Assembly: GCA_004292755.1 (NCBI GenBank)
Contig: RDXE01000077.1
Location: 1-41,917, forward strand
DNA length: 41,917 nt
DNA from: Alphaproteobacteria bacterium
Lineage (GTDB): Bacteria; Pseudomonadota; Alphaproteobacteria; Elsterales; Elsteraceae
Reading direction: 5' to 3'
Position numbers and translations under genes: made by a program. The notes beneath the pieces are model-generated. The model saw only the letters and a list, made by a program, of their open reading frames with translations. It had not been told where the DNA came from and ran no database searches. Shown one piece after another: positions 768 through 40,917 of this stretch; the first letter of the stretch is position 1; the number at the start of each line of letters is the position of its first letter.

Positions 768-851
768 AGTCCTAGTGGCGTCTCCGCGACGGGGCGTAGA
801 TTGGGGACCGACGACAGGAAGTTTTTTCTTGCCAGAATGAAGAGCGGGCAG

Positions 852-2221: not shown

Positions 2222-2224
2222 GCC

Positions 2225-3028: not shown

Positions 3029-3950
3029 GCCAGCGATCGTCGGCGGCTTTGTTCTGGGCAGCTTGGCGCTGGCCGTGGCCGCGATCTTGATGTTCGGCGG
3101 GGGCAAGCTGTTCGAAAAGACTGCCCGCGTCGTTGTCTATTTCACCGGTTCGATCGCCGGGTTGACCGTTGGTTCCCCGGTGACGTTTCGGGGCGTTCAG
3201 ATCGGCGCAGTCGAAAGCATCGTCGTAAAGGTCGATCCCGACGCCGGAAACGTCAACATCCCGGTCTATCTGACTCTGCGTCCGCAGCGGGTCGAGGGCA
3301 CCCAACCTGCCGACATCATCCGCGACTATGAACGCCTGATTGCGGCCGGTCTGCGCGCCAAGCTGGTCAGCCAAAGCCTGGTCACCGGGCAAAGCGCGGT
3401 CGACCTCGACTTCACGCCGACGGCGCCGCCGGTGCTGGTCGGTGGCGACCCGACGGTGATGGAGATTCCAGCACTGCCATCCGAGCTTCAGAAACTGAAG
3501 GACCAGGTGGCCGATCTCCCGTTGCGCGAATTGGCCGACGGCGCGTTGCGCACCCTGGCGTCCCTTGATCTCCTCAGTCGCCGTCTCGAAGAGAGATTGG
3601 ACGGGCTGGGCGATGACAGCAAAGTGATCATCGCCGCCGCCGCCGAGACTTTGGCCGAGGTCACCCGAACGGCGGGGGAAATGTCCGGATTGATCGAAGA
3701 TGGTCGGCGCGAGTTGCGCGGCCGCGGCGCGGAGTTTGGCCGCCTGCTGTCCACGGTTGATCGCGCCGCTGCCGACACCCAGACCTTGGTCAAATCCATC
3801 AATGCGTTGACCGATCCCCGCTCCCGCCTGCGTGCCGATCTGGAGGCGACCGCGCGCGACGCGGCCGCAACGGTCGCGTCGTTGCGCGGTTTCGCGCGGG
3901 AGATCGAGCGCAATCCCAGCGCTCTTGTCACAGGACGGAAGTCGCCATGA
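3015..3950 (+). CDS. mlaD: MlaD/MCE-domain substrate-binding protein
   Basis: Periplasmic, inner-membrane-anchored protein, 311 residues. An N-terminal membrane anchor (residues about 8-28, VGGFVLGSLALAVAAILMF) is followed by one MCE domain at about 38-118 (VYFTGSIAGLTVGSPVTFRGVQIGAV...), then a long helical, Ala/Leu/Arg-rich region at about 150-300. In relatives such helices help build a hexameric tunnel across the periplasm. It overlaps mlaF by 14 bases, and its stop overlaps the next ATG (ATGA at 3947). The long helical tail makes it closer to PqiB/YebT-associated MCE types than to the short E. coli MlaD. Confidence 0.9.
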   Translation: MADSKPAIVGGFVLGSLALAVAAILMFGGGKLFEKTARVVVYFTGSIAGLTVGSPVTFRGVQIGAVESIVVKVDPDAGNVNIPVYLTLRPQRVEGTQPADIIRDYERLIAAGLRAKLVSQSLVTGQSAVDLDFTPTAPPVLVGGDPTVMEIPALPSELQKLKDQVADLPLRELADGALRTLASLDLLSRRLEERLDGLGDDSKVIIAAAAETLAEVTRTAGEMSGLIEDGRRELRGRGAEFGRLLSTVDRAAADTQTLVKSINALTDPRSRLRADLEATARDAAATVASLRGFAREIERNPSALVTGRKSP

Positions 3951-4537
3951 CCTGTTTCTCGACCCGCGCGGTCGCTCTTCTTCTGCTTTTCAGCGTCGCG
4001 GGGTGCGGCGCGCTGTCGGGGCCGCCGGTGCGGCTCTATGTTTTGGGTGAGATCGCACCGCCAGTGGCGGCCCTCGTGGATGAGTCGGGGCGGCCGGTGT
4101 TCGTGCTGAAAACCGTCCAAGTGCCGGATTACCTCGACAACCAAGACATGCTGACGCGCGCTCTGGACAACGAGGTGGTCGCCAGCCGGTCTGGGCGTTG
4201 GGCAGAGCGGCTGTCCATCGGCATGACCCGGACCCTGATCACGGCGTTGAGTGAACGGGCGCCAGGTTATGTCCTGCTCGCCGCCACGCCCGCGTTCGGC
4301 GCGGTTCCCCGACAGATCACCGTCGATATCGACGCGTTCGACGCGCGCGCCGATGGTCAGATTTTCCTGGCGGCGCGATGGTCGATCGGGTCGGCGGGCG
4401 GCGATGTCGCCGCTGGTGGGCGGGTCGGGTTGGTCGGGTCTGCGCGCGCTCTCGGCGACGCCAACCTAGCCGCGGCAACGACGGCGATCCTCTATCGGCT
4501 CGCCGATGCGATCGCCGTGACTCTGCCGCCGGGCTGA
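3947..4537 (+). CDS. PqiC-like ABC transport auxiliary outer-membrane lipoprotein
   Basis: 196 residues. A lipoprotein signal peptide ends in the lipobox VAGC (Cys about residue 20), followed by an ABC_trans_aux/LPrePqiC type domain (RLYVLGE..., VPDYLDNQDMLTR, NEVVASRSGRWAERL). In relatives this lipoprotein sits on the outer membrane and receives substrate from the MCE tunnel. It takes the place of the soluble MlaC carrier, which is absent here. The ATGA overlap with the MCE gene implies translational coupling. It is the last gene of the operon, followed by a strong hairpin at 4575. Confidence 0.85.
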   Translation: MTCFSTRAVALLLLFSVAGCGALSGPPVRLYVLGEIAPPVAALVDESGRPVFVLKTVQVPDYLDNQDMLTRALDNEVVASRSGRWAERLSIGMTRTLITALSERAPGYVLLAATPAFGAVPRQITVDIDAFDARADGQIFLAARWSIGSAGGDVAAGGRVGLVGSARALGDANLAAATTAILYRLADAIAVTLPPG

Positions 4538-5021: not shown

Positions 5022-5177
5022 TTAGACATGGCCCAAAAAGATCAACACCACGAGCACGAGCAAAAGAAAGCCAACTCCTCCGCTCGGTTGATAGCCCCAA
5101 CCGCGACTGTAGCCCCAGTGCGGTAGCACTCCAAGGAGCGCCAAGACCAGAAGGATGAGGACAATAGTCGCCAACAT
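5022..5177 (-). CDS. DUF3309 small membrane protein
   Basis: A 51-residue protein, MLATIVLILLVLALLGVLPHWGYSRGWGYQPSGGVGFLLLVLVVLIFLGHV. It has two hydrophobic helices (about 2-18 and 36-50) around the WGYSRGWGYQPSGG loop typical of DUF3309. An excellent RBS (GGAGGAAAAG) stands directly before the ATG. These tiny inner-membrane proteins are common in proteobacterial stress regions; their function is unknown. It is probably transcribed from the 5178-5352 region, which contains a large inverted repeat. Confidence 0.85.
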   Translation of the reverse strand: MLATIVLILLVLALLGVLPHWGYSRGWGYQPSGGVGFLLLVLVVLIFLGHV

Positions 5178-5224
5178 CTTTTCCTCCAGCATGTGGTTGA
5201 CGATCGACCCCTGCGACCGCAGGC

Positions 5225-6302: not shown

Positions 6303-6443
6303 GATGAGCTCTCCTGTCTTCGAAACGATGCAGATCAGTCCGCAGTGCGGAACATTGGCACGGAACCACCGGGTTCGCCCTGCTCGGACGGCGCGGTCAC
6401 ACACCGCTCGCAAGGTGGGCAATGCACGCCACCAGAGCCAGGA

Positions 6444-6454
6444 TCGGAAACTAC
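6444..6454 (+). promoter_or_regulatory. Candidate FixJ-like box, copy facing csbD
   Basis: TCGGAAACTAC, an 11-base exact match to the left part of the site at 23267. It lies 142 bases upstream of csbD and is inverted relative to the copy at 6516, 61 bases away. Confidence 0.5.
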
Positions 6455-6515
6455 TCTGAGCCATGCCCCATTGGCGGGCACCGGTGTTGTCGAGCCGCCG
6501 TCGCGTGCTCAAACC

Positions 6516-6526
6516 GTAGTTTCCGA
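6516..6526 (-). promoter_or_regulatory. Candidate FixJ-like box, copy facing the triple-BON gene
   Basis: The plus strand reads GTAGTTTCCGA, the reverse complement of TCGGAAACTAC. It sits 87-97 bases before the ATG at 6613, a usual place for an activator site. Confidence 0.5.
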
Positions 6527-6612
6527 CTCTGCTGTCATCCGCAGCGGTCCGACATGAATTGCAGGCGTGCCGAACCATCATCGGTCACTGAACCAAGCCC
6601 GTGGAGGCAGTC

Positions 6613-7266
6613 ATGCCAACAGATAGCCAAATCCAGAAGGATGTCATCGCGGACCTCAACTGGGATCCATGCGTGACCGCCAGCCAGATCGGCGTAACCG
6701 CCCGGAATGGTGTGGTGGCACTCACCGGCCATGTTGGCTCCTACAGCGAAAAATACGCGGCGGAAAACGCGGCAGGGCGCGTCAAAGGCGTCAAGGCCGT
6801 GGCCGAAGAGATCGAGGTGCGCCTGCATGACACGGGCAAGCGGGGAGACGAGGAAATCGCCGCCGCCGCAGTTCAGCGGCTGGGTTGGAACGGCTCCGTG
6901 CCCCACGATGCGATCAAGGTGAAGGTCGAGAAGGGGTGGGTCACGCTCTCCGGCGAGGTCGAATGGCGGTTTCAGCGAGACGCGGCTGCAACCGAGATCC
7001 GGCACCTGCTGGGGGTGGTCGGCGTGTCCGACGCGATCACGATCAAGACGAGCGTCAGTACCGCCAGCATCAGTGCCAACATCACCAACGCCCTGCAACG
7101 GTCGTGGCTCTGGGAGGATGACAGCAACGTCAAGGTCACGGCCCAGGGCGGCGCAGTAAAGCTCTCTGGGACGGTTGAGTCCTGGCAGGACCGCCTCGCC
7201 GCTGGCCAGATCGCCTGGGCTGCGCCGGGCACTGTCTCGGTCGAAAACACCCTCATCGTCGTCTAA
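6613..7266 (+). CDS. Triple BON-domain protein
   Basis: 217 residues with three BON domains in tandem (about 3-70, 75-145 and 150-217), each with the G-x-V-x-L-x-G-x-V core (GVVALTGHV, GWVTLSGEV, GAVKLSGTV). There is no signal peptide, so it is cytoplasmic or unconventional. The ATG at 6613 is chosen because GGAGG stands 8 bases upstream; a GTG at 6601 is also in frame. Such OsmY-like proteins are induced by osmotic or starvation stress and are thought to bind membrane surfaces. A candidate regulator box lies about 90 bases upstream and a hairpin follows. Confidence 0.88.
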   Translation: MPTDSQIQKDVIADLNWDPCVTASQIGVTARNGVVALTGHVGSYSEKYAAENAAGRVKGVKAVAEEIEVRLHDTGKRGDEEIAAAAVQRLGWNGSVPHDAIKVKVEKGWVTLSGEVEWRFQRDAAATEIRHLLGVVGVSDAITIKTSVSTASISANITNALQRSWLWEDDSNVKVTAQGGAVKLSGTVESWQDRLAAGQIAWAAPGTVSVENTLIVV

Positions 7267-7290
7267 CAGCCACGGTAAGGTAACCGCTTT

Positions 7291-7315
7291 GGTCGGCCCG
7301 TGATTTGGGCCGACC
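7291..7315 (+). terminator. Intrinsic terminator after the triple-BON gene
   Basis: GGTCGGCCC and GGGCCGACC form a perfect 9-base stem with a 7-base loop, followed by GCCTTT. It is 24 bases after the BON stop and 24 before the oleate hydratase ATG. It either ends the first transcript or acts as a leader attenuator of the second. Confidence 0.7.
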
Positions 7316-7339
7316 GCCTTTCGTACGAGGAATTCTGCC

Positions 7340-8956
7340 ATGGCTGATCCTAAGCCTGCTATCCGCCCCACCACTGGTCGCGAGGCGACGAAGTACTGGC
7401 TGGTCGGGGGCGGTATCGCCTCCCTCTCCGCCGCCGCGTTCTTGATCCGCGATGGTGATGTCCCCGGTCACGCCATCACCATTTTGGAAGAGACTGGGGA
7501 ACTCGGCGGCAGCCTCGACGGCACGGGAGATCCAGGCCAAGGGTACGTACTGCGCGGAGGGCGCATGCTTGAAAGCAAGTACCTCTGCACCTTTGAACTG
7601 TTTGACTCGATTCCAGCGCTTGACGGCAGAAAGACCGTGACCGAGGAGATCTTCGCGTGGAACAAGACGCTGAAGACGGCCTCCAAGGCCCGTCTGTTTC
7701 GAGATGGTCACCCCCAGGTCGCTCCCAAATTCGGCCTCAGCGAACAGCATATCCTGACCATCGAACGTCTGGCGCTACAGCCGGAAGGTATGCTGGGAAA
7801 GAGCGCGATCACCGATCAGTTCAGCGCCAGCTTTTTCGAGACTGACTTCTGGTTCATGTGGTGCACCACCTTTGCATTTCAGCCCTGGCACAGCGCTGTA
7901 GAGTTCAAGCGCTACCTGGTGCGCTTTGTGCACATGGTCGAAGGGTTCGAACGCCTGCACGGTATCATGCGCACTGTCTACAACCAGCACGACTCGCTGG
8001 TCCGCCCGCTGCAGAAGTGGCTCGAGGAGCGTGGCGTGGTCTTCACCCTGAACACCCGCGTCACCGCGTTGAACAGCATCGCGGCCGCTGGCCGGAGTTT
8101 GGCGGTCAGCATCGACTTCGAGCGCGCTGGCGAGCGCGGCACGATCGGCGTCGCCTCCACCGACCATGTGTTGGTGACTCTCGGCTCGATGACCGAGGCC
8201 TCAAGCCTTGGCACCAACGATCAAGCGCCGCTGTTGCTCGGCAAGCCGGACGGTGGCGGTTGGGCATTGTGGGAGGCGCTTGCCCTCGGCCGACCCGAAC
8301 TGGGCCACCCAGGTGTCTTCGCTGACCATATCGACCAGTCCAAGTGGGTATCGTTCACGACGACGTTGCGCGACCCGAGCTTCTTGAATGCGGTCCGCGA
8401 CATCACCGGCAATGTGCCCGGCGAGGGCGGTTTGATCACGCTGCCGGAGTCTGCTTGGCTCGCGTCGATCGTAATTCCTGCGCAGCCGCATTTCATCGGC
8501 CAGCCGGACGATGTCAGTGTCTTTTGGGGCTATGGCCTTCGGGTCGATATCCCCGGCGACTTCGTCAAGAAGTCGATGGCCGACTGCTCAGGCCGCGAGA
8601 TCATGACCGAGTTGCTCGGTCATCTGCGACTGGACGCAGAGGCGGCACAGATCCTCGATACCAGCCTCTGCATCCCTTGCATGATGCCCTTCATCACCAG
8701 CCAGTTCCTCTGCCGGGAGCATGGCGATCGACCGCAGGTGACGCCGGCTGGCTGGAAGAACCTCTGGCTGATGGGACAGTTCTGCGAGCTGCCGGACGAT
8801 GTTGTGTTCACCGTCGAATACTCGATCCGCTCCGCGCAGGTCGCGGTCTACGCTGCCCTCGGCCTGAAACGGTCGCCACCCCCCGTCTACAAGGGCGCGT
8901 TCGACCCGCGCGTGCTGTATCGCGCGTTCCTCGCCTTGCATGATGTCCGTGCTTAG
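7340..8956 (+). CDS. ohyA: Oleate hydratase (FAD-dependent)
   Basis: Adds water across the cis-9 double bond of unsaturated fatty acids such as oleate, giving 10-hydroxystearate; peripheral membrane flavoenzyme. 538 residues, slightly shorter than most members (560-650). An N-terminal FAD fold has VGGGIASLSAAAFLIRDG at 22-39; GGRMLESKY at 73-81 contains the Glu (E78) expected to activate water; FFETDFWFMWCTTFAFQPWHSAVEFKRY at 165-192 is highly characteristic, and Y192 is a likely counterpart of the catalytic Tyr (by spacing, not structure). Many relatives have NQYDS where this one has NQHDS (215-219). The RBS is GAGGAAT. No obvious operon partner; the context suggests protection from toxic unsaturated fatty acids. 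Confidence 0.93.
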   Translation: MADPKPAIRPTTGREATKYWLVGGGIASLSAAAFLIRDGDVPGHAITILEETGELGGSLDGTGDPGQGYVLRGGRMLESKYLCTFELFDSIPALDGRKTVTEEIFAWNKTLKTASKARLFRDGHPQVAPKFGLSEQHILTIERLALQPEGMLGKSAITDQFSASFFETDFWFMWCTTFAFQPWHSAVEFKRYLVRFVHMVEGFERLHGIMRTVYNQHDSLVRPLQKWLEERGVVFTLNTRVTALNSIAAAGRSLAVSIDFERAGERGTIGVASTDHVLVTLGSMTEASSLGTNDQAPLLLGKPDGGGWALWEALALGRPELGHPGVFADHIDQSKWVSFTTTLRDPSFLNAVRDITGNVPGEGGLITLPESAWLASIVIPAQPHFIGQPDDVSVFWGYGLRVDIPGDFVKKSMADCSGREIMTELLGHLRLDAEAAQILDTSLCIPCMMPFITSQFLCREHGDRPQVTPAGWKNLWLMGQFCELPDDVVFTVEYSIRSAQVAVYAALGLKRSPPPVYKGAFDPRVLYRAFLALHDVRA

Positions 8957-9087: not shown

Positions 9088-9567
9088 TTACTTCGGTGGT
9101 GTGTGTGATTCAACAAACCACAGCTGGTGGTCGATGCCGCCAGAGACCGCGGAGAACAGGTCTGCCGTATCCTGATCGCCGAACGCGGCGGCCAGGGTGA
9201 CGGCCTCGCGAACCGACTGTCCAAACGCGGCCAACGCCCCGGCGACCGCGAAGATGTGCTTGCGCTCATCCGCGACACCGAGCGTGTAGGGGATCAGGAA
9301 CGACCGCTCCGCGGCCACCTGGATTGTGCCATGCGCGGTGCCGCCCAGCGCGGCGGCGCGCTCGGCCATTAGGTCCGAGTAAGCCTCTGCCTCATGAGAC
9401 ACCTTGTCGAATAACTCGTGCACCGCAATGAAGGCGAGGCCGCGCACATTCCAGTGCGCCTGCTTCATCTGCCCATGCAGGTCGATGGCGGCGGCCAGGT
9501 GCTTGTTCAGCAACTCGACCGATCGCGCCCGAATGGCTTCGGGAAGAGTGTTGTGGGTCGGATACAT
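9088..9567 (-). CDS. dps: Dps-family DNA-binding ferritin-like protein
   Basis: 159 residues from ATG 9567. All Dps ferroxidase positions are present with E. coli spacing: H38 (in AHWNV), H50, D54, D65 and E69. The protein forms 12-subunit shells that oxidise and store iron with H2O2 and protect DNA. The N-terminus lacks a Lys-rich tail, so DNA binding is uncertain. It is the last gene of the minus-strand stress protein / PRC-barrel / dps module, 36 bases after the PRC gene. A remnant of a second dps start lies at 10480. Confidence 0.92.
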   Translation of the reverse strand: MYPTHNTLPEAIRARSVELLNKHLAAAIDLHGQMKQAHWNVRGLAFIAVHELFDKVSHEAEAYSDLMAERAAALGGTAHGTIQVAAERSFLIPYTLGVADERKHIFAVAGALAAFGQSVREAVTLAAAFGDQDTADLFSAVSGGIDHQLWFVESHTPPK

Positions 9568-9603
9568 GGCAGGAGCTTTCACGCGAGAGGGAAGCAACCA
9601 GGG

Positions 9604-11271: not shown

Positions 11272-11820
11272 CTAGGCCGCCGCGACAGAGGGCGTGCTGG
11301 GCAGTGCAATCACGCTGGGATGCACTGTCACTTGCTCGGCGTCCGAGCTGTCCAGGATCGCGCGCGCGCGCTCCATGTCCTGTTCGGTGCCATGGACCAT
11401 CACCAAGAAGCCGTCGGCTTTCACCGCGGCCTCATAGGCAAGAATGCTGTCGTTCGGGACACCCATGCTGAACAGCGCGGCGCCTAAGGCACTCAGCCCG
11501 CCGATGATCACCGCGTTCTCGACCGCGAACAGCAGTGTGGCGGCAAAACTGCCCAGCACCACGAGGCTGCCGACGACCGGCACGGTGAGAAACATGCCGC
11601 CCATGAACAAGCCCCACAGCGCGCCCCAGAACGCGCCTTGACGGCCCCAGAACCGAACTCGGTCGCCGGTGCTGTAGAAGCCGATCACCTTCTCCTCGAT
11701 ATGGTATCCCTGGCCGACGATGCTGAGCTTCCGCATCTCGAAGCCCGCACCGGCGAGTTTACGGATCGCTGCCTCAGCAGCGCTGTGCTGGGTGAACACC
11801 GCGATTGTGGTATCGGACAT
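11272..11820 (-). CDS. YflT/DUF1269-like general stress protein
   Basis: 182 residues. The N-terminal alpha/beta part (MSDTTIAVFTQHSAAEAAIRKLAGAGFEMRKLSIVGQGYHIEEKVIGFY) is typical of the heat-induced stress protein YflT fold. A central Gly/Ala-rich hydrophobic hairpin at about 58-118 is probably membrane-embedded, and a C-terminal half (YEAAVKADGFLVMVHGTEQDMERARAILDSSDAEQVTVHP) follows. It is the first gene of the dps module. A partial match to the island box lies 66-76 bases upstream. The biochemical function is unknown. Confidence 0.75.
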   Translation of the reverse strand: MSDTTIAVFTQHSAAEAAIRKLAGAGFEMRKLSIVGQGYHIEEKVIGFYSTGDRVRFWGRQGAFWGALWGLFMGGMFLTVPVVGSLVVLGSFAATLLFAVENAVIIGGLSALGAALFSMGVPNDSILAYEAAVKADGFLVMVHGTEQDMERARAILDSSDAEQVTVHPSVIALPSTPSVAAA

Positions 11821-11885
11821 GGGTAGCCTGCGCGTTGAGGTGGAGACCTCAACTTGGTAGCGGTCGCGCCGATGCGCGGGCAGCG

Positions 11886-11896
11886 TCGGACTCTAC
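11886..11896 (+). promoter_or_regulatory. Weak FixJ-like box upstream of the stress-protein/dps module
   Basis: TCGGACTCTAC matches TCGGAAACTAC at 9 of 11 bases. It lies 66-76 bases upstream of the stress-protein start on the minus strand and about 195 bases before the MaoC-Pta gene on the plus strand. Confidence 0.3.
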
Positions 11897-12089
11897 GCAG
11901 CTGTAGCGCCGTATCGTCAGTAGCGGACACCCAACCGCACCGCGCCTGCGTGCTTCCCGACCCTGGTGGGCACGCCAGTGGACCAGCAAGCTCAGTCCAA
12001 CCGCTGAGGTGTTCCCGTTGACCGACCTTTCATCTCCGACGTGCTCGTCGCTGCCAGCGGCAGCCACTGTGCATGGCTCGGAACCTGTG

Positions 12090-23187: not shown

Positions 23188-23266
23188 GGCATGGTGTCCG
23201 TCGCCTGGAAGTCGGCAGTCCAACTGGTGACGAACGCTACCTGCTCGATCTACCGAAGCGGCAGGC

Positions 23267-23280
23267 TCGGAAACTACCGA
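23267..23280 (+). promoter_or_regulatory. Candidate FixJ-like box, best copy
   Basis: TCGGAAACTACCGA, itself partly palindromic (TCGG...CCGA). It lies 80-93 bases upstream of the MFS/PFOR operon and about 140 bases upstream of ldhA. It is paired with the inverted copy at 23297, 16 bases apart. Confidence 0.55.
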
Positions 23281-23296
23281 CCGTGGGTAGGGTAGC

Positions 23297-23310
23297 TCGG
23301 TAGATTCCGG
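23297..23310 (-). promoter_or_regulatory. Candidate FixJ-like box, inverted partner
   Basis: The plus strand reads TCGGTAGATTCCGG, which matches the reverse complement of the 23267 site at 12 of 14 bases. The two sites together also form a 12-base inverted repeat (11 of 12 paired). It lies 108-121 bases before the ldhA ATG. Confidence 0.5.
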
Positions 23311-23417
23311 CCCTGCGCACCCGGGCCTCCAGCCGCCACAACAATCGCGGGCGCGACTCGAGCCGGACGTGGCTCTGGCGAGGGCGGGGCCGTCACCAAC
23401 CGATCGAGGGAACTCCC

Positions 23418-24416
23418 ATGGACGTCACCGTGTTCAGCGCCAAGCCATATGACCGCTCCTTCCTGGACGCGGCGGCCGGGACGGCGCATCGGGTGACCTA
23501 CCTTGAGGCGCATCTGACGCCGGGCACCGCGGTGCTGGCTGACGGCGCCGATGTGGTGTGCGCCTTCGTCAACGACCGGGTCGATGCGGCGGTGCTGACC
23601 GCACTTCAGGGACTAGGCGTGCGCCTGGTCGCGTTACGCTCCGCGGGTTTCAACAATGTCGATTTGGTCGCGGCAAAGCATCTGGGCATCACAGTCGCGC
23701 GCGTCCCCGCCTATTCGCCGCAGGCTGTCGCCGAGCACACGGTCGCGCTGATGCTGTCGCTCAACCGCGGCATCCATCGCGCCTTTGCGCGGGTGCGGGA
23801 GGGCAACTTCGCCCTCGACGGCTTGCTTGGCTTCAACATGCAGGGCCGCAGCGTCGGCGTGATCGGCACCGGGCGGATCGGCGCTGCTGTGGTGACCATC
23901 TTGATGGGGTTCGGCTGTGATGTGCTGGCCTGTGATCCGCACTCCAACCCAACTCTGGTCGAGCGTGGGGTACGGTACATGGAATTGCCGGACCTGCTCT
24001 CGGCGTCGGACATCGTGACCCTGCATTGCCCACTGGTGCCGCAAACCCGCCACCTGATCGATACGGCCGCGATCGCCGAGATGCGGCGTGGCGCGATGCT
24101 GATCAACACCAGCCGTGGCGCCATCATCGACACCAATGCCGTGATCGCTGGTCTTAAGGATGGCGTGATCGGCCATCTCGGACTTGATGTCTACGAAGAA
24201 GAAGCAGCGCTGTTTTTCGAGGATCTCTCCGACCAGGTGATCCAAGACGATGTGTTTGCCCGACTGCTGACCTTCCCGAATGTCCTGATCACCGGTCACC
24301 AGGGGTTTTTCACCAGGGAGGCGATGGCTGCCATCGCAGAGACCACCTTCGCCAACATCACCGCCTTCGCGGCGACGGGGCATGCGCTGCACGAGGTTTC
24401 CGTCGATAAGGCGTGA
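23418..24416 (+). CDS. ldhA: D-lactate dehydrogenase (2-hydroxyacid dehydrogenase family)
   Basis: Reduces pyruvate to D-lactate with NADH. 332 residues, the usual length. The NAD-binding loop GTGRIG is at 150-155, the catalytic Arg at R233 ([10 protein letters not shown]), Glu in DVYEEE (257-262) and His at H294 in TGHQGFFT. The N-terminal substrate motif [10 protein letters not shown] is at 73-82. These are features of LdhA rather than generic phosphoglycerate dehydrogenases. RBS GAGGGAA before the ATG. It diverges from the PFOR operon across a 230-base region with two inverted candidate boxes, so both may be switched on together; it would reoxidise NADH during fermentation. Confidence 0.9.
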
Positions 24417-29416: not shown

Positions 29417-29833
29417 CGTCTCAGGCCCGCCGTGATTGGCTGGCCGACAGCCGGAGAAACGGGAGGGCCGGGCGCCAGCAGGACCACACCGCGACAGGCA
29501 TCGCCGTGTGGCAGCGACTGCGTCGCCATGTTGGCGACAACCCGGCATCGACTGTTGACCCTGTTGAGACGCGCAGCATTCACCAATCTAGCCCGTCAAT
29601 GCACGGCTGTAGCAGCCTCGGAAACCACCCAGCGAGCACAGCAACCGACGGGGGTCGTTTCAAACACGCTTTAAATAAACAAAATAAAAATCAACCTGTC
29701 TCGAAACGATTGTAAAAAAATGCCGAATTTTCACTGCGTACATTCCGAGGCTTCTATTGCGAAATTTGTAGTTTTATCAAGGTGGTTGGCGGATCAACAG
29801 CGCCGTAACCAAGATCTGAACTGGAGATCCGAA
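29417..29833. other. Divergent intergenic region of 417 bases
   Basis: No gene. It includes a candidate box at 29618 and an AT-rich block at about 29670-29730 unlike the surrounding GC-rich DNA, probably promoter or upstream-element DNA for the lipoprotein gene at 29834. Confidence 0.45.
29618..29629 (+). promoter_or_regulatory. Candidate FixJ-like box between the exporter operon and the Gly-zipper gene
   Basis: TCGGAAACCACC differs from the 23267 site at one of 12 bases. It lies about midway, near 200 bases from each divergent start. Confidence 0.4.
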
Positions 29834-30076
29834 ATGCGTCTCACCACCAAGCTAGCGGGGGCATCCCTGTTGATCCTCAGTCTGTCCGCCTGCGGCAACT
29901 CGCAGGGCGATCGGGCCATCAGCGGTGGCGCCATCGGAGCAGGCGCTGGGTTGCTCGGCGGCGCTCTGCTGGGCGCGCCAGCGACGGGTGCTGTGCTTGG
30001 CGGCATTGGTGGCGCTGCCACCGGGGCGCTGACCGACCCTAAGACGATCAATCTCGGTCGGCCAATCTGGCGCTAG
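29834..30076 (+). CDS. Gly-zipper (YMGG-like) lipoprotein
   Basis: 80 residues. The signal peptide ends in the lipobox LSAC; it is followed by a Gly-zipper stretch, GGAIGAGAGLLGGALLGAPATGAVLGGIGGAATGAL, that would form a membrane-embedded helical hairpin. The ATG at 29834 follows GGAG by 11 bases. Such small outer-membrane or envelope proteins are often stress-induced; the function is unknown. The gene is 105 bases before the OmpA-like gene and likely shares its transcript. Confidence 0.8.
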   Translation: MRLTTKLAGASLLILSLSACGNSQGDRAISGGAIGAGAGLLGGALLGAPATGAVLGGIGGAATGALTDPKTINLGRPIWR

Positions 30077-30181
30077 CGCAGACCCTGCGTTCGAACCCGG
30101 GTCATCTCCGCCTCACCGCGCGACGCTCCCCACCCCGGGGAGCGAACCGCATACTCTGCCATTGGAATGAAGGAAACAGCT

Positions 30182-30652
30182 ATGAACACCACCTTTAAAT
30201 CGGCTCGAACGCTTGTGCTTGTCGGGTCTTTGGCTGTGCTGACCGCGTGCGCCGGGATGGAGACCCCTCCTCAGACAGCGAACACGGCTGTGTCGCCCAC
30301 GCCGATGCAAATCCCCGGCGCTGGTTGGTACCAAGTGATGTTCGATACCGCGCATTCCGACATCAACGCGAGCGGGCAAGTCGTGGTCCGCAGTGTCGCC
30401 ACTGCGCTCCAGCGCGATCCAAACCTGCGCGTGACCGTGATTGGCAAAACCGACCGCGTCGGCACTGAGGCGGCGAATGCAGCACTCTCGGAGAAGCGGG
30501 CCGGGCGCGTGCGCGACGCCTTGATCGCGACCGGGATGGTGCAATCCAGCCGGATTGAGGTCCGCTGGCTCGGTGAAGGTCGGCAGGATGTTCTGACCGC
30601 CGATGATGTTGCCGAGCAACGCAATCGCGTCGTCGACATCACGGTGCAATAG
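30182..30652 (+). CDS. OmpA/Pal-like lipoprotein
   Basis: 156 residues. A lipobox (LTAC) ends the signal peptide; an OmpA C-terminal peptidoglycan-binding domain occupies about 50-155 (VMFDTAHSDINASGQVVVRSVATALQRDPNLRVTVIGKTDRVGTEAANAALSEKRAGRVRDALIATGM...EQRNRVVDITVQ). It has the Asp and Arg positions typical for diaminopimelate binding (TDRVG, NRVVDI). Its likely role is to tether outer membrane to cell wall. RBS AAGGAA. The last 14 bases overlap the end of the convergent regulator gene. Confidence 0.88.
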   Translation: MNTTFKSARTLVLVGSLAVLTACAGMETPPQTANTAVSPTPMQIPGAGWYQVMFDTAHSDINASGQVVVRSVATALQRDPNLRVTVIGKTDRVGTEAANAALSEKRAGRVRDALIATGMVQSSRIEVRWLGEGRQDVLTADDVAEQRNRVVDITVQ

Positions 30653-33600
30653 CCCCCTCTGGCTCGGCGGTGCGCCTCGGCGCGCCGTCGACACCCTCAG
30701 CCGATTTGCCGTATCCAGCAGTAAAGGTAACCCGCATCAGCGCTGATATGGAGCGCACTCCCATCTTTCTCATGATGGCAGCCCGGTGGTTCTCGACTGT
30801 GCGCTGACTAATATTCAAATCAGCAGCGATGTTTTTACTTGGCATTCCATCGACAACGAGCTCAAGAATTTGCCGCTGGCGGCGCGAGAGCGATTTAATG
30901 TGCGCGGCTGCCGCGTCCCGACTCAAGCCAGACCGGTTGGACTCATCGGCCTGCAACAGAGCCTGCTCCACCGAAGCGCGCAGCCGCAGAGTGCCGACTG
31001 GCTTCTCTAGGAAGTCCAGCGCTCCTGCCTTCATTGCCGAAATCGCGATCGAAACATCGCTCCGACCGGTCACGAGAATGGGGATCAGTCGACTGTGCTG
31101 CTGCACGAGGTGGCGCAGAAGGTCCAGCCCACTGATGCCAGGCAAGTAGGCATCGATCAGGACGCACCCAACCTGCGCGGCAGCGTCGGCCGCCAAGAAC
31201 GCCTCGCCACTGTCAAAGGTCTGGACGACGGAACAGAGGTCCTGTAGCGCCTCAGCGAAGCTGGAACAGATCGCTGGATCGTCATCGATGACGATCACGC
31301 TCAATCCGGCGTCGGCCGAAAGCATCCGAGGGGGCTGCCGATCGGCTGGTACGTCGATAATCTGCTCGATGACCTCAAGCAGGACATCGGGTTTGATCGG
31401 TTTGTCGATGCGCCGATAGGGGTGCGCGGCGATCGCCTGCAATGCATCTGCCGACGCATCGCCGGACAGCACCAGGATCGGGACATCAAACCCTAAGGTC
31501 GCGCGAAGTGCCGCCGCTGCGGCCAAGCCGGTTCCATCCGCCTGTCCGAAGTCCAGGATGGCCAAATCCGGCGTCACGCGGTCACGCCTGACCACATCGA
31601 CCGCCGCCGCGCTATCGGGCACAGCAACCACCCGGTGCCCACCTGCTTGCAACGTCAGCGTCAAGAGGTGGCGCAAATCCGGTTCTGCGCCGACGACCAG
31701 GATCTCACCCGGCCGCTCACGCGTCATCCCCATCGGCGCCGCCGGCTGCGAGACCACAGCCGCAATCGGGACATCAATGGCAAAACTGGATCCGCGATGG
31801 AGCTGGGAATCGACACGCACCGAGTGTCCGAGCAATTCCGCAAGATGGCGGACGATCGTCAAGCCCAAACCCATGCCCTTGTTGCTCGTGCGCACCGCGT
31901 TGGCAACCTGGTGGTACTCGTCAAAGATGACTGGCAGTTCGTGGTGCGGAATGCCGATGCCGGTGTCCCAGACCTCGATGCTTAGGACCTCACCGCGGCG
32001 GCGGCAGCCGAACAGGATCCTGCCGCGCTCCGTGTATTTCAGCGCATTCGACAAAAAATTCCGCAGAATTTGTTCGAGCAGCATCGGATCGGTGGTGACC
32101 GACAGACCACACTTGATCGTTCTCAGATCAACACCATTGGTTTCAGCGATCCCGGATAACTCTGCGTCCAGGCGTGCCATCAGGGGCTGGATTGGCACTG
32201 GGGTGAGATTGACTTGGACGACACCGGCACCAATCCGATTGACATCAAGCAGCGCGTTCAGCATCCCAGACATGGCGTTCAACGCCGTGTCAAACCGCAT
32301 CATCAGCGCGTGCACCGCCTCGTCAGAGCTCGCGCGTGCCATCAGCCCTTGCAGGAGTTGCAGATTCTGCAAGGGCTGGCGCAAGTCATGGCTGGCCGCG
32401 GCGAGGAACCGGGTTTTCGCGACGGTGGAGCGTTCGGCCGTCGATCGAGCCTCCTCAAGCGCCTGCGCTGCGTGTTTGCGCTCGGTGACATCGGTGAAGG
32501 TGATCACCACGCCCTCCACCTGTCCGCTATCGGTGCGATACGGCAGCACGCGCCGCAGGAACCATTTGCCAGAGCCAATTTCGATGTCGCGCTCGATCGG
32601 CTCCTGATGGGCGAGAACAGTCCGGGCGTCCTGGGTGAGGTGCGCGTCCCGCGCCAGAGAGGCCAGATCGGTCAGTGGCCGACCGACATCTCCCATGCGG
32701 ACGTTGAAAAAACGCTCAGTCGAGGGTGTAAAGAACATAATCGTCAGTGCGGGGCTTAGAAAAATAGTTGCCACCAGGGTGCTGGATAACACGTTCTTAA
32801 GATATTCTGATGTCACTCGACTTTTCTCTAATGTTTCTTGTAATTCATTGTTGAGGGCGGCGAGCTCGTCATTCAGTGATTGCAATTCTTCTTGGGAAGT
32901 TATCAGCTCTTCATTTGTGGTGTGAAATTCCTCGTTGATCGACAAGGCTTCTTCGGCGAGTGTCTCGCGCTCTTCAAGCGACGCCTCGGCTGCGGACGCG
33001 GCGTCCTTCAGGGACTCGCGCAGGGCGTCGAGTTCGCGTTCAAGCTCTGCGATCCGGGTCTCATCGACCGATCCGCTTGCCGATGGAAGGACGCCTTGCG
33101 GTTCAACAAAGCTGACCAGCAGCAGTGCTTCTGCGCCCACGCGCAGCGGCCGAACGTCGATCCGAACACCACCAAGCGCGGTCTCGGTTTCAACGCGCTG
33201 CGCCCCGTTTGCTGCCACAGCGGCATGCAGCGCCCGCTGCACCGCAAGGCGCAAGCGCGCACGCAGCGGCGGGTTGACCATCGCCAGCAGATCTGTGGTC
33301 GGCGGTCCTGGTGGGGTCGCGATGTAGAGCGAGGTATCGCCCATCAGAAATCGGCACCGGAACTGGCGATCGATCAACACCGACGGCGGTGCGAAGGCAT
33401 CGACCAGAACGCCCTGACACAGGCTTTCCAGGGTCTCCGGTCGCGTGCCTTCGCTCTGCGCGCCAACCAGGCGCTGGGGCTTGGGGGACGCGACGGTGTC
33501 TAGCACCATGTGCAACGCAGTTGGGCGACTGCCCCCTGCTTGGCGATAGATACGATATGGCTTGGATAGCGCATCGAAGCGGTCATCCAGAGCGCCGACA

Positions 33601-34991
33601 GTTTCTGCCCGGCCGAGCATCAAGATTCCGCCCTCGCTTAGCGCAAAAAGAAACAACAGCATCGCTTTCATCTGGGCGTGTCTTCTCAAGTAAATCAGAA
33701 GATTCCGGCAGGAAACAAAGTCGATTCTTGAAAATGGTGGATCTGTTAAAATATCTTGTACGGCAAATATTATGTTTGCGCGTAAGTCTGCGGATACATG
33801 AAGTGTATTGTTTTTTCTAGAAAAAAACCGCGAGATTCGACTTGGAGAGATCTGTTCCGCAATTGAGTCTGGATAGACTCCGCGGCGCGCGATCGTAATT
33901 GAGTCTGCATCGAGGTCGGAGGCAAAGATCTGGAGCTTCAGCGGCCGGCCGGATGCCTCGATCGCCTCAGTGAAGAGAATCGCGAGCGAGTAGGCTTCCT
34001 CCCCGCTGCTACAGGCGGCGATCCAAACCCGAATTGGTTGCTGCACGGGATGATCGCGCACGATCTGCGGCAACACAGAGCCAGCCAGATAAGCGAACAC
34101 CTCAGGATCTCTGAAAAACGCCGTAACATTTATTAAAAGGTCTTTGGCTAATGTCATTATTTCATCTGGATGATTTTCTAGATACGCTGCATAATCGTTT
34201 ACTGAATCTATGTTAACTTCTGCTTGGTTGATCCGTCTGCCAATCCGTCGGTAGAGTGTACCAGGCTTGTAGTGCCTGAAATCATACGATGTCTTACTCA
34301 ACAGAATCTGCACAATCGTCGAAAGCGCGTCCTCAACATCGAGCCGCCGAGCCTGTCGTTGCACCGTCGGATCCTGCGCAGCCTGGTCGATACTGTCGGT
34401 CAGCGCCTGAAGCACGGCGTCCGGTGTTATCGCGCGATCGAACGCCGTCACTAGCAGCGCACCCTGCGACGGATCATCACGGGCTGCTGGGTCCGGCGCC
34501 CTCACGATCGCCAACCCGCCGCTGTCTGTGATCGCTTGCAGTCCGAGGCGACCAGTCGTCGGATCGTCGCTCAGCACGATGCCTGCGACAGTCGGGGCGT
34601 AGTTCGCTGCCAACGTCGACAGCAAGTGGTCGATCGGTGTGAACTCGCTTGGTACCCGAGGGTGCTGTGACAGTCTGATCAGGCCATTGGCGATCACAGC
34701 GACCACGCCCCTCGGGACGATGTAAACATGCGATCGTTGGATCGACATGCCCTCCGTCGCGTCAAACACTGACATTTGGGTGTTGCCAGCCAACACCAAC
34801 GCCGACAAATCTGGCTCGTCTTGGCCGAGTGACTGCAATATGATGATGGCCATCTCGCAGTCCGATGGAATGTCAGAGAGCAGACGGCGACAAAAGCCCA
34901 CTCCTCCCGCAAAAATGCCCATCCCAACCACCAGTCTCGGGCGAAACATGGCGGTCACCGTGGTAAACGCCGTCTGTGATTTTGCCGACAT
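30639..34991 (-). CDS. CheB-like/CheR/PAS hybrid histidine kinase with two receivers and LuxR HTH
   Basis: 1450 residues from ATG 34991 (GGAGC RBS). Order: CheB-like domain (about 15-195) whose catalytic Ser, His and Asp positions read F27, S54 and T146, so probably inactive; CheR methyltransferase (about 220-485) with the SAM motif ACSSGEEAY (326-334) and DFVSCRNLLIYL; coiled coil (about 640-730); PAS (about 735-830); HisKA with H868 (ASHDLRQPLQ) and HATPase (NFLSNALKY, DTGIGIP, GMGLGL); REC1 with D1147 but a degenerate acidic pair; FixJ-like REC2 with the DDD pocket, D1280 and K1330; LuxR HTH (about 1367-1423). No membrane segments. One polypeptide can thus sense, relay phosphate and bind DNA. 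Likely controls this island; the signal is unknown. Confidence 0.88.
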   Translation of the reverse strand: MSAKSQTAFTTVTAMFRPRLVVGMGIFAGGVGFCRRLLSDIPSDCEMAIIILQSLGQDEPDLSALVLAGNTQMSVFDATEGMSIQRSHVYIVPRGVVAVIANGLIRLSQHPRVPSEFTPIDHLLSTLAANYAPTVAGIVLSDDPTTGRLGLQAITDSGGLAIVRAPDPAARDDPSQGALLVTAFDRAITPDAVLQALTDSIDQAAQDPTVQRQARRLDVEDALSTIVQILLSKTSYDFRHYKPGTLYRRIGRRINQAEVNIDSVNDYAAYLENHPDEIMTLAKDLLINVTAFFRDPEVFAYLAGSVLPQIVRDHPVQQPIRVWIAACSSGEEAYSLAILFTEAIEASGRPLKLQIFASDLDADSITIARRGVYPDSIAEQISPSRISRFFSRKNNTLHVSADLRANIIFAVQDILTDPPFSRIDFVSCRNLLIYLRRHAQMKAMLLFLFALSEGGILMLGRAETVGALDDRFDALSKPYRIYRQAGGSRPTALHMVLDTVASPKPQRLVGAQSEGTRPETLESLCQGVLVDAFAPPSVLIDRQFRCRFLMGDTSLYIATPPGPPTTDLLAMVNPPLRARLRLAVQRALHAAVAANGAQRVETETALGGVRIDVRPLRVGAEALLLVSFVEPQGVLPSASGSVDETRIAELERELDALRESLKDAASAAEASLEERETLAEEALSINEEFHTTNEELITSQEELQSLNDELAALNNELQETLEKSRVTSEYLKNVLSSTLVATIFLSPALTIMFFTPSTERFFNVRMGDVGRPLTDLASLARDAHLTQDARTVLAHQEPIERDIEIGSGKWFLRRVLPYRTDSGQVEGVVITFTDVTERKHAAQALEEARSTAERSTVAKTRFLAAASHDLRQPLQNLQLLQGLMARASSDEAVHALMMRFDTALNAMSGMLNALLDVNRIGAGVVQVNLTPVPIQPLMARLDAELSGIAETNGVDLRTIKCGLSVTTDPMLLEQILRNFLSNALKYTERGRILFGCRRRGEVLSIEVWDTGIGIPHHELPVIFDEYHQVANAVRTSNKGMGLGLTIVRHLAELLGHSVRVDSQLHRGSSFAIDVPIAAVVSQPAAPMGMTRERPGEILVVGAEPDLRHLLTLTLQAGGHRVVAVPDSAAAVDVVRRDRVTPDLAILDFGQADGTGLAAAAALRATLGFDVPILVLSGDASADALQAIAAHPYRRIDKPIKPDVLLEVIEQIIDVPADRQPPRMLSADAGLSVIVIDDDPAICSSFAEALQDLCSVVQTFDSGEAFLAADAAAQVGCVLIDAYLPGISGLDLLRHLVQQHSRLIPILVTGRSDVSIAISAMKAGALDFLEKPVGTLRLRASVEQALLQADESNRSGLSRDAAAAHIKSLSRRQRQILELVVDGMPSKNIAADLNISQRTVENHRAAIMRKMGVRSISALMRVTFTAGYGKSAEGVDGAPRRTAEPEGAIAP

Positions 34992-35148
34992 TGGAGCACT
35001 GCTCCTTTCACGCTTCCAGATTTTGAGCCGACGGCATCGGAAGCCTGATAACGCCGGAAGTATGACAATAACACAAGAATCTCTGATTAACTCAAAAATC
35101 ACACAAGAAATATTGGAACAGAGGCATGACGCGATCTCTGAAAACTAA

Positions 35149-35162
35149 GTAGATACCGACTC
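35149..35162 (-). promoter_or_regulatory. Weak FixJ-like box between regulator and PRC-barrel gene
   Basis: The plus strand reads GTAGATACCGACTC, against GTAGTTTCCGACTC at 6516 (12 of 14). It lies about 158 bases upstream of the regulator start and about 175 upstream of the PRC gene, so it could mediate autoregulation. Confidence 0.3.
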
Positions 35163-35336: not shown

Positions 35337-35828
35337 ATGTCGATCAAAAACCAGATCCTGTTGGCTGGCGTCCTGGCCGCGGCCATTGCTGTCCCGGCGA
35401 TGGCGCAGACACCGCAACCAGCCCCCGCCCCGGCGCCAAGTGGCCTTACTCTCTCGCCTGCTGTGACCCCGACCCCGACACAGTCCACGGTCATGCCGAT
35501 CGCAACCCCGATCGCGGTGTCGATGTTCTACAACACGCGGCCGACGTCGAAAGCGTGGAACTCCTCAGAGGTTCTGAACACCTCGGTTCACAACCGCAAC
35601 AAGGAGAAGATCGGCACCGTCGAGCAGATCCTGGTTGACGATGATGGCCGCGCGGTCGCGCTGGTGCTGAACGTCGGCGGTTTCCTCGGCATGGGGGAAC
35701 ATCAAGTCGCGGTCAGCATGACATCATTACAGCTGAGCCGTGACTCCGCTGGCGCTTTGTCCGTCGTGCTTGATGTGACCAAGGCCTTGCTCGAGGCAGC
35801 GCCGAAGTACGAGATGCGCCGCAGCTAG
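35337..35828 (+). CDS. Exported PRC-barrel protein
   Basis: 163 residues. A signal peptide MSIKNQILLAGVLAAAIAVPAMAQ with an AMA-Q cleavage site is followed by a Pro-rich linker (PQPAPAPAPS...PTPTQS) and one PRC-barrel domain at about 73-155 (SSEVLNTSVHNRNKEKIGTVEQILVDDDGRAVALVLNVGGFLGMGEHQVAVSMTSLQL). Periplasmic or surface location is expected. This domain family is common in rhizobial and acetic-acid-bacterial stress genes; the function is unknown. A hairpin follows 8 bases after the stop. Confidence 0.85.
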   Translation: MSIKNQILLAGVLAAAIAVPAMAQTPQPAPAPAPSGLTLSPAVTPTPTQSTVMPIATPIAVSMFYNTRPTSKAWNSSEVLNTSVHNRNKEKIGTVEQILVDDDGRAVALVLNVGGFLGMGEHQVAVSMTSLQLSRDSAGALSVVLDVTKALLEAAPKYEMRRS

Positions 35829-37638: not shown

Positions 37639-39318
37639 TCAGGCGGCCTGGGCCAAGGCGATGGTCCTGGGCTTCCAGTTCCACGGGAGCAGCTCATCGA
37701 GTCGGTGGGCTGGGTAGCCGGCGATCCGGGCGAGCACGTCGGCCAACCAGGCTTGGGGCTCGACGTCGTTCATCTTGGCGGTGATGATCATGCTGTACAT
37801 CGCCGCGGCGCGCTCGCCGCCCCGGTCTGACCCACAGAAGAGCCATGACTTTCTGCCAAGAGCGATGCCTCTGAGCGCCCGTTCGGCGGCATTGTTCGAC
37901 AGACAGACTCTGCCGTCATCGAGGAACAGAGTGAAGGCCGCCCAGCGCTTGAGGATGTAGGTCATGGCCTTGGCCAGGTCGTGGCCGCGCGAGAGCTTGG
38001 CGCGCTGTTCCAGCATGTAGGCCTTCAGTTCGGCGACCAGCGGCGCGCTCAGTGCTTGGCGGACCGCTCGTCACTGTTCGGACCCTTGGCCATTGATCGA
38101 GCGCTCGATGCCGAACAGGGCGTCGATCCGGCGCACGATCTCGACGGCGATCGGCGAGACGACGATCTCTTTCTTGCCGGCCGCTCGGCGACGTGCGTTC
38201 TCGGTGAGATCCGCCATGGCGAAGAAGGGCCTGCGGGCATGAACCCAGCAGGCCGCCTCCTTGATCGGCGACGGACTTCGCCCGCCTTCGTAGAGTTTGC
38301 CGTATCCGTCAAAGGCATCGGCCTGAAGGATGCCGCCATAGTCGGCGAGGTGGGCCTGGGGATGTTCGCCCTTCCGATTGCGCGAGTAATAGAACATCGC
38401 CGACGGGGCATCCGAGCCTCTGAACGGCCGGTCGTCCCGCACGTAAACCCAACATCGGGCGATGTCGCACTTGCCGAGCGCCAGTACCGGTACGGTCGTG
38501 TCATCGCCATGCAGGCGCTCAGCCGCCATGACGTGGCCTTCCACCAGCCTCAGGAGCGGCTCCAGCGCCGCACAGCCGGCGCCCACCGCATCGGCCATGG
38601 TCGATAGGCTGATCGGCACACCTTCGCGAGCATAGCGCTCGGCCTGCCGGTTCAAGGGCTGATGCTGGCCGAACTTCTCGTAGTGGATCATGGCCAGAAG
38701 GCTCGGCCCCGCCCACCCCCTGGGGATCACGTGGAACGGTGCCGGCGCCTGGCTGATCTTCTCGCAGTCCCGGCAGGTGAACTTCTCCCGCACCGTCTCG
38801 ATCACCTTCCAGGAGCGGGGGATCGACTCCAGGGTACAGGTGACGTCTTCACCCAGCTTGCGCAGGCGCGCGCCACCGCAGCAGTCACAGGCGGTCGGCG
38901 GATCGATCACCACCCGCTCGCGCGGTAAATGCTCAGGGAAGGTGTTGCGCTCGGTCCGGCGCTTGCGCACGAAGCCGGCCACGGTGGTGGTCGTGGCCAC
39001 CGCCATCTCCGCGGCCAACTCATCCTCCGTGGCGGCCGCGTCGGCCTCCTCCAGCTGAAGCTCCATCTGATCGATCAGCCGGACCGACCGCTCGGAGCGC
39101 TGCCCGTAGATCTGGCGCTCGAGCTTGGCGATCCGGAGCTTCTGGTGGGCGATCAACGCCAGGTCTTCAGACGCCCGAGCCCGCGCCACCGCCAGCTCGG
39201 CGGCGACGACGTCCCTGTCGGCGAGGATCTCCAGGTTGCGCGCTCGCGCCGTCATCAGCGCGCTCTTCAGCGCCGCGACATCGTCCGGAAGGGCCTCGAG
39301 ATCGCCATCCATGACCAT
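37639..39318 (-). pseudogene. tnpC: IS66 transposase TnpC interrupted by an in-frame TGA
   Basis: The part from 39318 (415 codons) contains the N-terminal coiled region with LAVARARASEDLALIAHQKLRIAKLERQIYGQRSER, the zinc-finger CDCCGGARLRKLG and the catalytic region with MIHYEKFGQHQPLNRQ. It stops at TGA 38073-38071 after INGQGSEQ. The same frame then continues RAVRQALSAPLVAELKAYM and on to LEQRAKLSRGHDLAKAMTYILKRW...LDDGRVCLSNNAAERALRGIALGRKSWLF...WLADVLARIAGYPAHRLDELLPWNW, the normal C-terminus with the final catalytic Glu region. A C-to-T change (CGA to TGA) is enough to explain it. Without readthrough the transposase is inactive. Confidence 0.88.
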
Positions 39319-39384
39319 TATGGAATCATAGAATCCGCTGTTTGAGACTCCCCAAAATGCAGGTTCGGCCAGGTTTTTTTCGGC

Positions 39385-39732
39385 CTATCCGGCACTCTGC
39401 GGACGCCAGGTCTGCCGCGGATTGCGCCAATCGATCCCTTCGAGCAGATAGCCCATCTGGGCGGGCGTCATCGACACCACGCCTCCGGCCGTCTGGGGCC
39501 AGATGAACCGCCCACGGTCCAGCCGCTTGGCATAAAGCGACAGCCCCACACCGTCATGCCAGAGGATCTTCAGGAGGTCGCCGCGGCGACCGCGGAAGGC
39601 GAACAAATCACCCCCATGGGGATCGCGCTTCAGCCCTTCTTGGACCTGAAGCGCCAAGCCCTGCATGCCGCGTCGCATGTCCGTGTGGCCAGTTGCTATC
39701 CACACCCGCACCCCGCCGGGAACCGGGATCAT
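39385..39732 (-). CDS. tnpB: IS66 accessory protein TnpB
   Basis: 115 residues, canonical IS66 Orf2: MIPVPGGVRVWIATGHTDMRRGMQGLALQVQEGLKRDPHGGDLFAFRGRRGDLLKILWHDGVGLSLYAKRLDRGRFIWP. Required for transposition of IS66 elements by an unclear mechanism. Its ATG overlaps the tnpA stop (ATGA). Full length, no damage seen. Confidence 0.93.
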   Translation of the reverse strand: MIPVPGGVRVWIATGHTDMRRGMQGLALQVQEGLKRDPHGGDLFAFRGRRGDLLKILWHDGVGLSLYAKRLDRGRFIWPQTAGGVVSMTPAQMGYLLEGIDWRNPRQTWRPQSAG

Positions 39733-40136
39733 CGCCGCGACAACGCCTTCAGCACGCGCGCCAACGCGGCCGCGTCGACATCGCTGCCCGCGACGATCCG
39801 GTCGCCCTGCGCCAGCACGATCTCCATCCGACCGGTCACCGTGACGACAGGCTCGGCTGGCGCGGCTGCAGGCGCCAGCTCGGCAGCACCGGCAAGCTGG
39901 GCCGGCACGAACGTCACCGCGGCGTCGGTCGAGGGCACGCCCACCAGCCCTAGCTGCCGCCGCCAGGTGAACAGCATGTTCGCGTTCAGGTCATAGCGCC
40001 GGGCAACCACCGAGACCGACGCGCCGGGTGCATCCGCCTCGGCAACGATCCGCCGCTTCTCATCCTTCGACCAGCGACGCCGCCGCCGACGGCCCTGACG
40101 CAGATCGGGTACACCGTCCAATTCCGAAACCGACAT
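39729..40136 (-). CDS. tnpA: IS66 accessory protein TnpA (HTH)
   Basis: 135 residues from ATG 40136. A basic N-terminus RRRRRRWSKDEKRRIVAEADAPGASVSVVARRYDLNANMLFTWRRQLG forms the helix-turn-helix typical of IS66 Orf1 (Tnp_IS66 HTH/IS3-OrfA-like). The C-terminus (VTVTGRMEIVLAQGDRIVAGSDVDAAALARVLKALSRR) is also typical. It probably binds the element ends. Coupled to tnpB. Confidence 0.9.
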   Translation of the reverse strand: MSVSELDGVPDLRQGRRRRRRWSKDEKRRIVAEADAPGASVSVVARRYDLNANMLFTWRRQLGLVGVPSTDAAVTFVPAQLAGAAELAPAAAPAEPVVTVTGRMEIVLAQGDRIVAGSDVDAAALARVLKALSRR

Positions 40137-40140
40137 CAAC

Positions 40141-40311: not shown

Positions 40312-40917
40312 CTAGCGTGTCAGCAGCGACAAATCTTGTCGGCGCCCAAGGGCGCTCGCCTCGGCCGACCACGCGGCGTTGGGGCGCGTGCGCGACGAAA
40401 TCGATGCGGTGCTGCCGTTACAGGAGTATCGGGGTGGCTGTGGGGTAGGGCAGGGCGAGCTGGTCAAAGGCTTGGTGACCTGCCCTCTCGAGAGTCGGAG
40501 CCTCCGGCCAACCCGAGACAGTTCAGGCATCGACCCCGCCGGTGCCAGAGCGCCGCGTTGGGCGGGCGAAGGACGCGGCAGTGAGGGTTTCCAGTTCTCG
40601 AAGACCGTAGCGTGCGTGCCTACTCGGACAAAGACTACCACCTCAGGCTTCGTCGGGGTATCCAGCTTATAGATCAGCACAAAGTCGCCGCCGATATGAC
40701 AGTCACGATGGCCTTGCCACTCCCCTATAAGGGGATGGTCCTTGTACTCAGGCGGCAGTAGGCTGTCATTGGCGACAAGCAGCATCATGACTTTTTTGAG
40801 TTTTGACATATCAAAGCGTCCGCTTTCAGACAGACTCGCGAAGTCTTTCACGAAACGCTTTGTGTAGTCGCAAGCCCGCGGTAGCGGTGTGCGCTTACTG
40901 GACGTGGGCTTCTTCAA
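40312..40917 (-). CDS. YafQ/RelE-type toxin with abnormal C-terminal run-on
   Basis: 201 residues, but only about 1-107 belong to the YafQ mRNA-interferase family: YTKRFVKDFASLSE, DMSKLKKVMMLLVAND, YKDHPLIGEWQGHRDCHIGGDFVLIYKL, VVVFVRVGTHATVF. Likely catalytic positions are H61, H74, D78 and H102; the Trp after the Asp in E. coli YafQ is F79 here. Family members end within a residue or two of THxxLF. Here the frame continues about 95 residues of Pro/Ser/Arg-rich sequence, so the original stop was lost by mutation or recombination. Activity is uncertain. The first 23 bases overlap the antitoxin gene. Confidence 0.8.
   Translation of the reverse strand: MKKPTSSKRTPLPRACDYTKRFVKDFASLSESGRFDMSKLKKVMMLLVANDSLLPPEYKDHPLIGEWQGHRDCHIGGDFVLIYKLDTPTKPEVVVFVRVGTHATVFENWKPSLPRPSPAQRGALAPAGSMPELSRVGRRLRLSRGQVTKPLTSSPCPTPQPPRYSCNGSTASISSRTRPNAAWSAEASALGRRQDLSLLTR

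Follow-up and report, generated by a model that had tools for sequence, protein, structure and literature searches.

The window analysed here, an alphaproteobacterial stretch of 41,917 nucleotides, encodes on its minus strand a protein of 1450 amino acids. The coding frame (30642–34991, with the stop codon at 30639–30641) starts at an ATG at position 34991, with AAAGGAG just 5' of it, and all Pfam domains of the chain fall within this one uninterrupted frame. The first-pass annotation had placed the gene at 30639–34991 without stating its strand, and its coordinates, its order of domains and its union of kinase, receivers and HTH in a single chain are all borne out by the frame and the Pfam matches:

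30639–34991, minus strand: coding sequence, 1450 aa, CheB-CheR-coiled coil-PAS-HisKA-HATPase-REC1-REC2-LuxR HTH (frame, Pfam, relatives)
34419–34928, minus strand: CheB methylesterase-like domain, residues 22–191 (Pfam CheB_methylest, 1.7e-22)
33558–34325, minus strand: CheR methyltransferase, residues 223–478 (CheR_N 223–275; CheR 288–478, 1.6e-46)
32787–33074, minus strand: coiled coil with NEEL/EELQSLN repeats, about residues 640–735 (sequence and alignment)
32466–32801, minus strand: PAS_10 domain, about residues 731–842 (Pfam PAS_10, 731–836)
31764–32420, minus strand: HisKA and HATPase_c, residues 858–1076 (Pfam; HisKA 858–923, HATPase_c 968–1076)
31362–31706, minus strand: REC1, about residues 1096–1210 (Pfam Response_reg)
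30969–31298, minus strand: REC2, FixJ-like, residues 1232–1341 (Pfam Response_reg)
30729–30896, minus strand: LuxR/FixJ HTH, residues 1366–1421 (Pfam GerE, 1.5e-19)

Hydropathy indicated no transmembrane segment (the highest 19-residue Kyte-Doolittle mean, 1.83, lies at the start of the PAS domain), in agreement with the earlier view that the protein lacks membrane segments. The last 200 residues, comprising REC2 and the HTH, match the NCBIfam FixJ model at 6.4e-56 and, in a PDB sequence search, a FixJ crystal structure chain at 4.2e-38; the score of 189.1 bits against the equivalog cut-off of 255 marks this part as FixJ-like, not FixJ. As in hybrid histidine kinases, a HisKA domain with its H-box, a HATPase_c domain and a receiver occur in one chain, and as in FixJ/NarL-type output proteins a receiver with a phospho-Asp and an acid pocket is joined to a LuxR-type HTH.

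Active-site residues were read from an alignment of 31 family members. The H-box HDLRQPL is near-invariant, giving His868 as the phospho-acceptor of the window copy, and the HTH recognition helix SQRTVENHRAAIM (SQRTVENHRA.IM) is almost invariant. REC2 of the window copy keeps its acids (DDD) and its phospho-Asp1280, both near-invariant in the family. REC1 keeps Asp1147 and has lost the Mg-binding acid pair (GAE, versus EDD in relatives). The catalytic Ser, His and Asp of CheB are replaced by Phe27, Ser54 and Thr146, whereas most of the full-length relatives shown retain the triad (GASAGG, QHL, GxDG); the window CheB is 32% identical to those of relatives, which are 60% identical among themselves. 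In CheR the SAM motif ACSSGEE and FASD are retained and the all-alpha N domain is present. Judged from these residues, CheR appears intact, and esterase activity and phosphorylation of REC1 are unlikely in this copy. The methylation-type domains proposed earlier thus survive in part: CheR looks sound, but CheB has lost all three catalytic residues, and with CheB dead here reversible methylation is doubtful. The term phosphorelay, also used earlier, is likewise doubtful, as no HPt domain was found among the best 25 of 33 Pfam matches to the protein. Because of this and of the lost REC1 acids, direct transfer from His868 to Asp1280 seems likelier and would be the simplest reading.

The first-pass annotation had also held that the gene lies among genes sharing a candidate box, and this was upheld: a matrix retrained without the window sites finds five sites of at least 18 bits in the window, compared with a mean of 0.01 in 100 dinucleotide shuffles. 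The operator boxes of the window are as follows:

752–772, plus strand: toward the mlaE operon (989–4537); matrix, with a box also before the mlaE orthologue of relative G001
6441–6461, minus strand: facing leftward; matrix
6509–6529, plus strand: weaker box toward BON-ohyA (6601–8956); below 14 bits, retrained matrix
11883–11903, minus strand: weak box toward a YflT-like gene (11272–11820); matrix
23264–23284, minus strand: toward the MFS-gltD-PFOR run (23223–14638); matrix
23293–23313, plus strand: weaker box toward a D-2-hydroxyacid dehydrogenase gene (23418–24416); below 14 bits, retrained matrix
29615–29635, minus strand: toward the HlyD-ABC export operon (29548–24517); matrix and own-genome search
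29731–29751, plus strand: toward lipoprotein/OmpA genes (about 29834–30652); matrix
35142–35162, plus strand: toward a PRC-barrel gene (35337–35828), in the divergent upstream region of the regulator; matrix

Four of these nine sites are weak, and relatives have stronger boxes and −10 elements than the window. Within the genome of origin, both matches with at most one mismatch and five of the 13 with at most two lie in this 42-kb contig, which makes up 1% of the genome; at three mismatches the reversed control (276) exceeds the signal (105), hence that total is uninformative. We considered autoregulation through the adjacent box at 35142 and rejected it, since the box, by its orientation and its −10 element, faces the divergent gene. 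The window genes that were scanned include no further regulator, in agreement with the earlier claim. The window further encodes a small, membrane-like DUF3309 protein (5022–5192, minus strand) and a Dps/ferritin-like protein (9088–9597, minus strand), both typical members of related islands. IS66 transposase genes (38071–40139) and a YafQ-like toxin gene (40312–40917) lie near the contig end and are consistent with mobility of the island.

The box matrix was built from eight islands, the first examined, all of which carry the box (55 sites; column-permuted matrices give about 10). The sequence CGGAAACTAC..AG is common to the upstream regions of relatives and the window site at 23267, and TAGTTTCCGA lies within the operator box. 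In an alignment of 117 sites a TAnnnT element occurs on the opposite strand at a fixed distance, and we therefore read the operator as the 17-bp CTRRGTAGTTTCCGAnnC, centred near −45 and adjoining the −35 position; it precedes most transcription units of these islands and, on the computational evidence, is confined to them. The box lies about 23 nt upstream of the −10 element, the position of a class II activator. This element, which played no part in discovering the box, is confirmed in 65 sites from outside the matrix loci (at the key positions, A in 44/65 and T in 41/65). A gene start follows 50–300 nt downstream in the driven direction at 36 of 45 island sites, compared with 16 of 44 in the opposite direction. 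An EcfG-type sigma promoter reading of GGAAAC was rejected: no such pair was found, only the fixed-distance −10. In annotated islands the box precedes adhP-phosphoketolase-ackA, oleate hydratase, dps and usp-slipin genes, as well as PRC, BON, CsbD, DUF3309 and single-domain response regulator genes; in G001 it stands before orthologues of the mlaE, PRC and YflT-pta-ackA units of the window. Many family members also have it upstream of the regulator gene itself, at a distance of up to about 300 nt.

The same full-length chain occurs in about 25 other genomes or plasmids of Alphaproteobacteria and Caballeronia, mostly at 41–47% identity, so that the search for like architectures which the first-pass annotation had proposed finds a widespread family, not a one-off. 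Misassembly is ruled out because the identical architecture recurs full length elsewhere. Full-length relatives were found in Rhizobium and Falsiroseomonas, and plasmid-borne ones in Methylocystis, Phyllobacterium, Polymorphobacter, Lichenicola, Acidiphilium, Sphingomonas and Caballeronia. About 4% of the sampled genomes of the same class contain a full-length relative; in a sample of 398 genomes of the phylum a single clear full-length case was found in addition to the window. CheB is absent from some members, in part together with CheR, and a Methylocapsa member is divided into two ORFs. Public annotation labels relatives 'chemotaxis protein CheB' or 'CheR family methyltransferase'.

The association of regulator and box was examined in 385 genomes of the same class that had contributed nothing to the box definition. 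The exact box is present in 11 of the 16 genomes with the kinase-receiver-HTH half and in five of the 369 others (Fisher 3e-14, in genomes that are not phylogenetically independent). It is found in none of the 14 genomes whose CheB-CheR-PAS proteins stop before that half, a contrast weakened by the one to four matches that a looser pattern gives in some of these genomes. Nearly all genomes with the HTH half match the looser pattern (up to 32 matches in G331 and 22 in G001; 0–1 in controls); five of them lack the exact box, and one, G601, lacks even the looser one. The member in G067, without CheB and CheR, has kept its HTH, and three boxes are present. This correlation suggests that the HTH of the family binds the box, with the proviso that regulator and box are carried by the same islands, so that any island-linked factor would correlate.

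Taken together, these sequence comparisons indicate that the protein is probably a soluble, single-chain hybrid two-component activator of a mobile stress and fermentation island. A cue from the cytoplasm would act on the CheB/CheR-coiled coil-PAS half and so control autophosphorylation of His868, from which the phosphate would go to Asp1280 of REC2 in the same or another chain. Phosphorylated REC2 would then release or dimerise the LuxR-type HTH, which could bind the operator near −45 and recruit RNA polymerase as a class II activator, turning on the fermentation, redox, envelope and stress operons of the island. Both the direction of phosphotransfer and activation, as opposed to repression, are what we infer. 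Targets of the classes PFOR, acetate kinase, phosphoketolase, alcohol dehydrogenase, Dps and universal stress proteins suggest adaptation to low oxygen, energy limitation or general stress. A further-reaching proposal is that these proteins form an undescribed class of soluble one-chain sensor-activators, in which chemotaxis-type methylation of the protein's own coiled coil tunes the kinase and the fused HTH controls, through a dedicated operator, a mobile stress/fermentation regulon often found on plasmids, the esterase arm having decayed here to leave methylation one-way; this is speculative, and as a whole it seems to us rather unlikely.

The box might instead be the site of another regulator, whether an unlinked LuxR/FixJ-type protein or an ECF/EcfG-type sigma factor, with the chain described here feeding into it or merely sharing its island. 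In G001 the regulator gene is divergent from an ECF sigma gene with a PhyR_sigma2 match (L152:6473–7111), with a box between them, a second protein of that genome has a closely similar HTH and its own box, and sigma or HTH genes are present in some islands. However, no second DNA-binding gene recurs across the islands examined, and none is annotated besides the regulator in that of Methylocystis iwaonis. The 17-bp block with an ordinary TAnnnT −10 does not resemble a typical ECF −35/−10 pair, and the box is rare (16/385 genomes), whereas FixJ and EcfG are common in Alphaproteobacteria. We consider this explanation unlikely. That the operator is a repressor site appears a slim prospect: it abuts the −35 position, where repressors can bind too, but the fixed spacing from box to −10 and the weak −35 region make up the layout usual for activator-dependent promoters, and FixJ and NarL relatives often activate. 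Least probable is that the protein serves chemotaxis-type adaptation or signalling by methylation with a vestigial HTH, as the database label, the intact CheR motifs and the CheB triad of relatives might suggest, given that strong conservation of the HTH contrasts with decay of the window CheB (32% versus 60% identity), that G067 keeps HTH and boxes without CheB/CheR, and that no che operon is seen in annotated islands.

In several related islands a single-domain CheY-like response regulator (L056:29788–30162, L057:29453–29815, L059:26860–27219, L061:20821–21183 and L023:5399–5758) is divergent from or adjoins the main regulator and is box-driven in most cases; the window is without one. It is possibly a phosphate partner or sink. 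The M. iwaonis island encodes, about 7 kb from its regulator, a second CheB-CheR-PAS-kinase-REC protein without HTH (L057:13073–17095). G001 encodes a 472-aa protein (L148:4104–5522, minus strand) in which a LuxR HTH close to the N-terminus precedes PAS-like and HWE-like kinase sequence. A box lies upstream of its gene, and it is a reversed HTH-kinase fusion in what is putatively the same regulon.

A family filed as 'chemotaxis protein CheB' probably comprises the master regulators of mobile stress and fermentation islands, which occur in Alphaproteobacteria and in at least one betaproteobacterium. Since operator and promoter layout are explicit, sequence can be used to read out the regulon, and the family offers a system for asking whether CheR/CheB domains regulate a transcription factor. 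The open-access papers searched contained nothing relevant on the architecture or the box, and in them we found no description of a soluble CheB/CheR/PAS input combined with a FixJ-type output and a dedicated operator on mobile islands.

Compared by gene classes alone, these islands resemble the lxa locus of Burkholderia cenocepacia, a large low-oxygen-linked island of universal stress protein, metabolism and transport genes for which a CRP/FNR protein is the suggested regulator (PMC6127331, PMC9104464), whereas the candidate here is the CheB-CheR-PAS-kinase-REC-REC-HTH chain. Residues 20–846 are 30–40% identical to CheB-CheR-PAS fusions, often kinase-ended, in many Pseudomonadota genomes, but those matches end before the kinase-REC-REC-HTH half, and in the class sample their genomes lack the exact box. 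The HisKA-HATPase-REC1 stretch matches the NahK/ErcS' hybrid kinase model NF041832 at 327.6 bits, below its 400-bit cut-off, and that model has no HTH output. With FixL-FixJ and the FixJ-NarL proteins the present chain shares a REC2-HTH that is FixJ-like by sequence, and the box contains what we take to be a NarL-like TACYYMT half. In contrast to FixL-FixJ, this output falls below the FixJ equivalog cut-off, is fused to its kinase and has a different operator, and the PAS domain is a PAS_10 match.

The HTH of the Bacteroides hybrid two-component systems (HTCS) is of the AraC type. In these systems, as outlined in PMC11253607, a sensor kinase and a response-regulator transcription factor likewise form one polypeptide, and the protein described here similarly holds kinase, receiver and DNA-binding domain together and is linked to box-bearing genes. 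According to the same source, HTCS are membrane sensors of polysaccharide utilization genes, whereas the present chain is soluble, with a CheB/CheR/PAS input, two receivers and a LuxR/FixJ HTH. That a single chain can combine kinase and transcription factor is thus already known from HTCS (PMC11253607); what is new here is that the shared box is real and decodable.
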